Source: Candidatus Tectimicrobiota bacterium (GTDB taxonomy: Bacteria; JACPUC01). From it: DNA of 64,000 nucleotides. Below, piece by piece: positions 3,280 through 54,881 of the stretch. Every line of letters starts with the position of its first letter. Position 1 is the first letter of the stretch. The notes under the pieces were generated by a model. It had not been told where the DNA came from and ran no database searches. It saw only the letters and a program-made list of their open reading frames with translations. The stretch is taken from the NCBI GenBank assembly GCA_016192455.1, contig JACPUC010000011.1, forward strand, positions 62,001 to 126,000, given 5' to 3'. A program made the translations under genes and the position numbers.

Positions 3280-3500
3280 GTCGTACCCTCTCCGCGTCTC
3301 CGCGGTGATTGCCGCCGGCGGCCACCGCCGAGGCGCGGTGGGCGCGAAGGTAAGGGTGAACCGCTGATGGACACGGACGCCCACAACTATCCGTGTTCAT
3401 CCGTGTTCATCTGTGGTTCCTTGGTTGCCGATGGCGGCGCCGGTTCGCGAACCGGCCCTACGGTGGCTGGGCTGGAAGCCTGTCCTACCCTCCCCGCGTC
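3280..3500. repeat. Degenerate copy of the composite palindromic repeat between livG and livF
   Basis: This intergenic stretch carries pieces of the hairpin element seen again at 4281-4811 and 47464-48302: a CTCCGCGTCTCCGCGG stem half, a segment reading ATCCGTGTTCATCTGTGGTTCCTTG, and the 18-bp perfect palindrome GCCGGTTCGCGAACCGGC at 3439-3456. It splits what is otherwise a back-to-back livG-livF arrangement. The boundaries are approximate. Confidence 0.75.
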
Positions 3501-50557: not shown

Positions 50558-50944
50558 TCAGCTCTTCTTCTCGCCGGCGAAGCGCTGCTTATTCACCACC
50601 ACGCGCACGTGCGTGCCCTCGCCGATCTTCGTCTCGCCGTTCCACGACTCGACCTCGAAGGTGACGCGGCGCTTGTTGATCTCCTTCACCTTTGAGGTGG
50701 TCCTGATCGTATCCCCAACCTTTGCGGCGGCCAGGTGGAAGACGTTGACGTGGTAGCCGACCGAGGCGTCCCCCTCTTCGAAGTGGCGCTCCAGGATGAG
50801 GCGGGAGCACTGCTCGATGAGGCGAATCATCGAGGGGGTGGAGAGGACCGATTGGACATTCGGCCCCATGTGCGAGATGCCGTCGCTCGGCTGCACCACG
50901 TGCGCCGTCTCATTTGATTCACCTACGTGAAGGCCGTCCTTCAT
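50558..50944 (-). CDS. FlK-like hot-dog thioesterase
   Basis: A 128-residue single hot-dog domain. T36, E44 and H70 (STPSMIRLIEQ and VFHLAAA) reproduce the spacing of the FlK fluoroacetyl-CoA thioesterase catalytic residues T42, E50 and H76 (8 and 26 residues apart), and MKDGLHVG plus GEGTHVRVVV match the family ends. It likely hydrolyses a small acyl-CoA; fluoroacetate specificity is not implied, since FlK's special lid is not evident. The start at 50944 matches the family N-terminus. Confidence 0.82.
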   Translation of the reverse strand: MKDGLHVGESNETAHVVQPSDGISHMGPNVQSVLSTPSMIRLIEQCSRLILERHFEEGDASVGYHVNVFHLAAAKVGDTIRTTSKVKEINKRRVTFEVESWNGETKIGEGTHVRVVVNKQRFAGEKKS

Positions 50945-51049: not shown

Positions 51050-51071
51050 GAATGTTCCACGTGGAACATTC
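51050..51071. promoter_or_regulatory. parS-type ParB-binding site
   Basis: A 22-bp perfect palindrome centred on CACGTG; its core TGTTCCACGTGGAACA (51053-51068) matches the chromosomal parS consensus TGTTNCACGTGNAACA. It lies in the spacer between the RidA and FlK-like genes. ParB (Spo0J) loads CTP-dependent clamps here during chromosome segregation. No parA or parB gene is in the window. Confidence 0.85.
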
Positions 51072-51118: not shown

Positions 51119-51583
51119 TCACGACTTGAGCTGCACGACCATCTCCACCTCGACGGAGATATTCGAGGGCAGGGCGGCGACGCCGATGGCCGAGCGCGCG
51201 TGGCGCCCGCGCTCGCTCCAGAGCTCGACGAGCAGGTCCGAAAAGCCATTGATGACAAGGGGGGACTTCTCGAACCCTTCCGGCGCGTTCACGAAGCCGA
51301 GCACCTTGACGATGCGCTCCACCTGGTCGAGGTCGCCGACGATGGCCTTGATGTTGCCGAGGGAGTTGACGGCGCAGAGCTTCGCCGCCGCGTAGCCCTC
51401 TTCCATGCTGATGTCGCGCCCCACCTTGCCTTTGTAGACCAGGGCGCCGTCCTTGCGCGGCCCCACCCCCGAAACGAACACAAGGTTGCCGACGCGGATC
51501 GCTGGCTCATACGTGCCGGCGGCCTTCATCGGGGTGGGGAGTTTCAGACCCATGCGTTCCAGCTTTGCTTCAATTTCGCCCAT
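51119..51583 (-). CDS. RidA/YjgF-family protein
   Basis: A 154-residue member of the Rid family (reactive enamine/imine deaminases; also includes aminomuconate deaminases). The typical N-terminus is LGLKLP-like (MGLKLPTPMKAAGTYEPAIRVGNLVFVSGVGP) and the centre has NSLGNIKAIVGDLDQVERIVKVLGFVNAPEGF. It is of the longer Rid subgroup, and the C-terminal RSAIGVAALPSNISVEVEMVV replaces R-x-x-V-x-V-x-x-LP. GGAAGG precedes the ATG at 51583, which is preferred to an ATG 13 codons earlier. Confidence 0.87.
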   Translation of the reverse strand: MGEIEAKLERMGLKLPTPMKAAGTYEPAIRVGNLVFVSGVGPRKDGALVYKGKVGRDISMEEGYAAAKLCAVNSLGNIKAIVGDLDQVERIVKVLGFVNAPEGFEKSPLVINGFSDLLVELWSERGRHARSAIGVAALPSNISVEVEMVVQLKS

Positions 51584-51640
51584 GATATCCTTCCATTCTT
51601 GGTATGGCGACCGTGACGCCACTCTCCCGAAACTAACCCC

Positions 51641-53207: not shown

Positions 53208-54881
53208 TTACGTCCATTTCAGTTCGCTGCTGCAATTCGAGCAAAACGGTTGCCTTGGCTGCACGACCGCATCACAGGTTGGGCAGTGAACCTCCTCGGG
53301 CCTCCCGAGGGATAGTTGATGTCCCATCTTTTTCTTCACCTTGGAGGCTTTCTTGAAGGTTACATTCACCTGGTTGTAGGGGGGATAGTCGATGGTCTTG
53401 CCACCCAGCAGCTCGGCCACCGTAAGTATCTGAAGCCGGGGATGCTTTCGCCAGGGTGACTCGTAGAATCCGGCCCCAGCCGCTTCCTCGCGCATTGGTT
53501 GGGTTGGCTCCTGACGGGTGAGAAGCACTCCCACCTGAGCTTTCTCTCGCTCAAGTACGCCGCGAAGGTCGCGTACATCCTTGACTGAGGTATGGCCTGA
53601 TTTCACCGACAGGACGATTTGCTTGGTCTTCCCACCAGCAGTGCCTTCGTCGTGGAAGTAGAGACGGCCATCGATACCCCGGTCGGCGCCCTTTTTCTGC
53701 TCCACGGGGCGCGCTCCAACAAGCCCCAATGCCCACCACTGGAACTGGTACGGATCTTCCTTGGCAAGGGCATCAGCATCAGGTAGGGAAACAGGCTCGC
53801 CTACTACCTTATAGGGGACCCGTGCTGGAAAAGCATCCTGCAAGCGATGCTTAATCAGCGTTATCGCCAAGTGAGTGATGTCGATTCCTACCCAGGTGCG
53901 CTGAAGCTCTTGAGCCACGGCAATGGCGGTCCCGCAACCGCAGAAGGGGTCGAGGACCGTATCACCTTCGTTGGAGCTAGCTAGGATGATCCGCTCCAAC
54001 AAGGCTTCCGGCTTTTGCGTAGGGTACCCGAGCCTTTCTCTGGCCATTGGATTGATCGCGTTAATGTCTGTCCATGTGTCATCAATCTGAACCGTCCCAC
54101 TGCTCTCTGACAAATATTGCTTATAAGACCATTTGGCTTCAGGATGTTGGGGAGGAAGTAATCTACCTTCTGACCTTAGTCTGTCGAATGTTTCTTGCGA
54201 ATAGGTTTTCAGCAAGGTCTTTCGGTATGGGCCACGTCCGTCATCATCATCCCATTTAAACCTGGCAAGGTATTCGTCGGAATATGGCTTATTGGGCTGA
54301 TTCCACTTCCAGGTTTCCCCCTCCGAACCACTATAAAACAGTATTACATCATGCGACCTAGGGAATTGTCGTGCTCGAGCCTTACTACTACCCGCGAAGG
54401 GTGTCCTCTTCCAAATGATCTCATTCCTGAAGTTTCTTGGCTGGAAAACGGCATCCATAAGAAGTTTTAGATAGTGACTTGCTGTTGGGTCGCAATGCAA
54501 GTAAACACTACCTGTTTGTTTTAAGGCGCGACGGAGCTCCACTAGGCGTGGAGCCATCATGGTTAAGTACGCCATCATATCGTTATAACCTAACAATATC
54601 CGGAAAGCCTGTATGGCTTCGGACACTTTCTGCGGGCCGCGTTCAACAATCTCGTGATAAGCGGCGGCAGCTTCCTTATCCCAGCGCCAGGTATCTTCAA
54701 AGGCCTTGATCTGAGCGGCGGCCCGGGAGCCATCCTTCTCTGCGAAAAGTACGTTGTAGGTCGCTTTACTGTTGAATGGGGGATCAAGGTAGACCAAGTC
54801 CACAGACTCATCTGGTATATACCGTCTGAGTACGTCCAGGTTGTCGCCGTAATAGAGGGTATTTTCCATGTTGAACAACAT
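53208..54881 (-). CDS. DNA methyltransferase fused to Mrr-like nuclease domain and zinc ribbon
   Basis: A 557-residue protein. Catalytic motif IV DPPF (33-36) precedes the SAM-binding motif DPFCGCGTAI (D311), the order of beta-class N4/N6 methyltransferases; TQKPEALLERII is near 290. After about residue 385 comes a PD-(D/E)XK-like Mrr domain: WWALGLVGARPVEQKKGADRGIDG (D404) and LSVKSG (S425-V426-K427, where E/Q is usual). The end (about 533-553) has two CxxC pairs, a zinc ribbon. AT-richer than its neighbours. ATG codons at 54881 and 54869 are possible. It may be a one-protein restriction-modification or a methylase with DNA-sensing domain. Confidence 0.82.
   Translation of the reverse strand: MLFNMENTLYYGDNLDVLRRYIPDESVDLVYLDPPFNSKATYNVLFAEKDGSRAAAQIKAFEDTWRWDKEAAAAYHEIVERGPQKVSEAIQAFRILLGYNDMMAYLTMMAPRLVELRRALKQTGSVYLHCDPTASHYLKLLMDAVFQPRNFRNEIIWKRTPFAGSSKARARQFPRSHDVILFYSGSEGETWKWNQPNKPYSDEYLARFKWDDDDGRGPYRKTLLKTYSQETFDRLRSEGRLLPPQHPEAKWSYKQYLSESSGTVQIDDTWTDINAINPMARERLGYPTQKPEALLERIILASSNEGDTVLDPFCGCGTAIAVAQELQRTWVGIDITHLAITLIKHRLQDAFPARVPYKVVGEPVSLPDADALAKEDPYQFQWWALGLVGARPVEQKKGADRGIDGRLYFHDEGTAGGKTKQIVLSVKSGHTSVKDVRDLRGVLEREKAQVGVLLTRQEPTQPMREEAAGAGFYESPWRKHPRLQILTVAELLGGKTIDYPPYNQVNVTFKKASKVKKKMGHQLSLGRPEEVHCPTCDAVVQPRQPFCSNCSSELKWT
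54868..54881. promoter_or_regulatory. Inverted repeat overlapping the methyltransferase start
   Basis: ATGTTG-AA-CAACAT spans the two candidate start codons. It could bind an autoregulator or occlude translation by hairpin formation. Confidence 0.35.

Follow-up and report, generated by a model that had tools for sequence, protein, structure and literature searches.

The stretch of DNA analysed here (64,000 nucleotides, G000:C6:62001-126000; hereafter the window) carries a parS-type palindrome, GAATGTTCCACGTGGAACATTC, that is perfect over 22 bp at positions 51050-51071 (no strand assigned, as for the two forms nested in it). Its 16-bp core, TGTTCCACGTGGAACA, at 51053-51068 (G000:C6:113053-113068), fits the parS consensus TGTTNCACGTGNAACA without a mismatch. 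No other perfect match occurs in the 64-kb window, where two other matches carry 3 mismatches each (on average, 0.85 matches with 3 or fewer mismatches would be expected by chance). An 18-bp form, ATGTTCCACGTGGAACAT, spans 51052-51069. The palindrome is flanked by two minus-strand genes: a RidA/YjgF-like gene at 51119-51622 (PF14588, PF01042), whose stop codon lies about 50 bp from the palindrome, and its downstream neighbour at 50558-50944, encoding a FlK-type (hot-dog) thioesterase (PF22636, PF03061; start codon uncertain). No terminator-like site was found between the two genes, and a shared operon is therefore possible; the predicted spreading of ParB from this site might affect the flanking genes. 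The first-pass annotation had described a palindrome perfect over 22 bp, its core matching parS, between two co-directional genes, and both descriptions hold.

The host genome is a 4.46-Mb draft in 31 contigs (88.19% complete, 2.34% estimated contamination), which encodes a single DnaA (C1:272 kb) and a single full-length chromosomal ParB (C1:281.5 kb). With gene names assigned from translations, contig C1 reads gyrA-gyrB-dnaA on one strand and yidC, jag, mnmE, gidA, parA and parB on the other; an identical parS copy lies between gidA and parA at C1:280587, 8 kb from dnaA. The cognate chromosomal ParA and ParB are thus encoded downstream of gidA on C1, and the first-pass reading is borne out in so far as the site is of parS type and the genome has a chromosomal ParA-ParB pair. 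SMC (a 1246-aa frame) and ScpA are also encoded, both on C23. We infer that the dnaA/gidA/parAB region of C1 is a classic origin neighbourhood, a placement made from gene content only; around dnaA the GC skew is weak and noisy, and DnaA-box-like words are scarce. Along the contig as a whole (G000:C1:1-365081), the skew around dnaA is very weak and the gene-strand bias not strong, which together suggest either much rearrangement or an unusual mode of replication. The ends of C1 (1-20000 and 360001-365081) have a GC content of 0.54-0.57, compared to about 0.67 elsewhere.

Perfect copies of TGTTCCACGTGGAACA number 13 genome-wide, where 0.0004 would be expected from base composition. Two one-mismatch copies are also present, each with G for A at the last base, while matches with two mismatches occur at background level only (a reversed-pattern control gave 14 matches within two mismatches, and 0 perfect matches). 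The core GTTCCACGTGGAAC occurs exactly 15 times in the genome, and other perfect parS variants, such as TGTTTCACGTGAAACA, are absent from it. The 18-bp form is common to 12 of the 13 copies, and beyond it only a mild preference for A is seen at the next position.

These copies are spread over 10 of the 31 contigs, and the nearest pair is 42 kb apart. Ten contigs bear copies where uniform placement predicts 9.8, and the summed length of the empty contigs fits that expectation too. A single copy falls on C1, the 365-kb contig that carries dnaA and parAB. The window had been proposed to be origin-proximal, with many scattered copies named as the outcome that would speak against this; the genome-wide search returned that very outcome, and the window site lies at least about 200 kb from dnaA even if C6 were to follow directly after C1, as judged by contig-length arithmetic. 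Of the further checks proposed, parAB and dnaA could be located, on C1, whereas GC skew proved too weak around dnaA. The site in the window is a real parS site, yet it says nothing about origin proximity in this genome. Could all copies nevertheless belong to one broad, oriC-centred arc, an extreme of the Bacillus-like arrangement and wider than usual? Even if the contigs are ordered so as to bring the copies as close together as possible, an arc that includes every copy and the dnaA region measures no less than 1.81-1.83 Mb, equivalent to 41% of the assembly, or to 36% (1.83 Mb) of an estimated 5.06-Mb genome if the bin is taken as one chromosome; in B. subtilis, eight parS sites extend over about 0.75 Mb (PMC8357415). 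For such an arc, however, ten contigs must fall in the most favourable order, and site density should peak on the dnaA contig, which has its single copy; the spread, moreover, equals the uniform expectation. We consider this arrangement unlikely.

The flanks of the copies share no homology past about 20 bp, which makes it unlikely that a longer mobile element spread them recently. An alternative is neutral dispersal, in which duplication of short palindromes, or rearrangement of the chromosome, left the copies behind as relics and the parAB copy is the only one that matters. A second dispersed palindrome, GTAGGGGCGGTTCGCGAACCGCCCCTAC, is abundant (31 cores in 365 kb), which keeps this alternative alive, and both the weak GC skew, as in a much rearranged chromosome, and the intergenic position of 10 of the 13 parS copies agree with it. 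Against it stand the missing flank homology and the lack of a decay series, the copies passing from 13 perfect and 2 one-mismatch sites straight to background two-mismatch matches; relic strong ParB sites, besides, would still bind ParB and would need to be tolerated by the cell. On balance neutral dispersal appears quite unlikely.

Three copies lie inside genes, and the intergenic share (by a rough gene caller) is higher than chance would give: with non-coding DNA taken as 20-30% of the genome, P for at least 10 of 13 is about 2e-5 to 7e-4. This preference would also suit operators, through which a transcription regulator, perhaps ParB itself, would control the genes beside the distal copies; in P. 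aeruginosa, ParB bound at parS is reported to repress adjoining genes (PMC7022226). The neighbours, however, include genes for an aminopeptidase, an Hsp20, a permease/isochorismatase pair, a cytochrome bd-like oxidase and a glycosyltransferase, with no common function, and they stand in tandem, divergent and convergent orientations. Operators of one regulon are rejected on these grounds, and with three copies inside genes and one being the canonical gidA-parA parS, a regulatory role for the distal copies at large is very improbable.

Composition bears on whether the copies belong together. The tetranucleotide signature of 14 of 14 site stretches matches that of the parAB contig C1 (r 0.88-0.95), compared to at most 0.81 for seven foreign loci, which argues against mis-binning. 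A mixture of origin regions from several organisms, for which the draft state of the bin and its 2.34% estimated contamination might speak, is hence the least credible explanation of all, given one dnaA and one full-length chromosomal parAB, a single composition across all site stretches, and no parA, parB or dnaA match beside any of the 12 other copies.

How common such a scatter is was gauged in panels of genomes that sample other lineages broadly, related to the host at the level of domain only and including many drafts. The perfect 16-mer occurs in 29 of 192 panel genomes; apart from the host, none of these 28 has more than 7 copies, and the copies lie within about 5 kb of one another where they share a contig (one genome, G043, has copies on two contigs). 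For the 18-mer, in a 389-genome panel, 17 other genomes carry it with at most 3 copies each, and none of 20 named genomes with a related ParB exceeds 3 sites. Widely scattered copies are thus found in the host genome alone among the panels of 192, 389 and 20 genomes.

The candidate reader of the sites is the ParB encoded on C1, which has the domains ParB_N, HTH_ParB and ParB_C (Pfam) and the motifs GERR and ENLQR. An ungapped alignment of its DNA-binding domain to Caulobacter ParB (6t1f) places R173, M179, R184 and G201 at the specificity positions. R173 and G201 are described as absolutely conserved in ParB orthologues, and this RXXG pattern marks the class specific for parS; in Noc the two positions are Q and R (PMC7383237). 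Because the host ParB carries the RXXG residues and the site corresponds to TGTTCCACGTGGAACM, the ChIP-defined parS of P. aeruginosa with the same core as the host sites (PMC5098823), the sequences indicate that this ParB very likely binds them. Its relatives among the named genomes reach a best identity of 47%. Two further, near-identical ParB_N/HTH_ParB proteins are cut by contig ends (G000:C6:223165-223710 and G000:C9:158732-159277), one of them adjoining a transposase-like ORF; the pair probably represents a repeated mobile or plasmid-like element at assembly breaks. They look unlikely as readers of parS, as the recognition helix of the C6 protein, inspected by eye, seems to have Pro at the R173 position.

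In its components the host system resembles those of Caulobacter, Pseudomonas and most bacteria, with which it shares the parS core (TGTTCCACGTGGAACM in P. aeruginosa), the gidA-parA-parB order, an RXXG ParB and SMC-ScpA. It departs from origin-clustered ParABS systems in layout: their sites occupy a few kb near oriC, whereas the host copies extend over at least 41% of the assembly and its 365-kb dnaA contig has one copy only. B. subtilis likewise has several parS sites far apart, but its 8 sites span about 0.75 Mb round oriC and include a strong 60-kb cluster, while the host has no pair within 40 kb and all 13 sites are identical. Scattered parS sets are said to be limited to a few lineages, including Bacilli (PMC8357415). 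In P. aeruginosa, ParB also makes contacts chromosome-wide, though at 7-bp half-sites with peaks below 0.6 kb, as opposed to the full 16-18-bp sites of the host. Noc-binding sites offer another likeness, a ParB-family palindrome scattered round the chromosome and, in their case, absent near the terminus. The host site, by contrast, is parS, there are 13 sites compared to about 70, and its ParB carries R173/G201 in place of Q/R, with an N-terminus (MQRKALGKGLAALLPE) that by eye is ParB-like. Since no match to the Noc-binding sequence ATTTCCCGGGAAAT at up to 1 mismatch was found in the host genome and its ParB is of the RXXG type, we reject a Noc/NBS system proper.

Taken together, these data point to about 13 identical parS sites (15 with the one-mismatch pair) that are probably dispersed on one chromosome and served by a single ParB encoded beside dnaA and gidA. 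We postulate that ParB-CTP would load at each copy and slide into the flanking DNA, where it could recruit Smc-ScpAB, creating many separated loading points with no single origin-centred cluster. The copy beside parAB would act as the true centromere, while the distal copies might, like Noc sites, contribute to nucleoid compaction or marking. Noc shows that ParB-family sites spread around a chromosome can function in nucleoid occlusion (PMC4331003), and a Noc-like use of parS is therefore a possible function.

A position near the origin is considered part of parS function, and the layout described here is unusual in that far-off parS disturbs chromosome segregation or folding in the bacteria tested. 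P. aeruginosa requires parS inside a zone of some 650 kb around oriC, and no strains with it at 1 or 1.5 Mb from oriC could be obtained or propagated (PMC5098823). SMC collisions result in B. subtilis when strong parS sites are moved apart (PMC8357415). The disruptive effect of distant strong sites in both species counts against dispersed loading in the host, as does the draft state of the assembly, with which an arc of at least 1.8 Mb centred on the origin would still be compatible. With these reservations, we tentatively suggest that the host may represent a lineage in which parS marks genome-wide ParB-SMC loading points and not the origin, where one ParB might combine centromere function with Noc-like, nucleoid-wide tasks, and where segregation and SMC traffic would tolerate distant parS. 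The 13 identical, widely separated sites offer a natural test of both the P. aeruginosa zone rule and the B. subtilis collision rule. They also carry a warning: parS alone should not be used to label a metagenomic contig as origin-proximal.

Two other features of the window deserve mention. The ORF at 53208-54881 resembles a DNA methyltransferase whose C-terminal region is of restriction type, and sits in a stretch of lower GC content (0.605 at 52-56 kb). The second dispersed palindrome, with core GGTTCGCGAACC and a full form approximating the longer sequence given above, is found in the window at 3442, 4519, 47562, 48053 and 55594, the 31 cores already cited being those of C1; it looks like a REP/MITE-type element.
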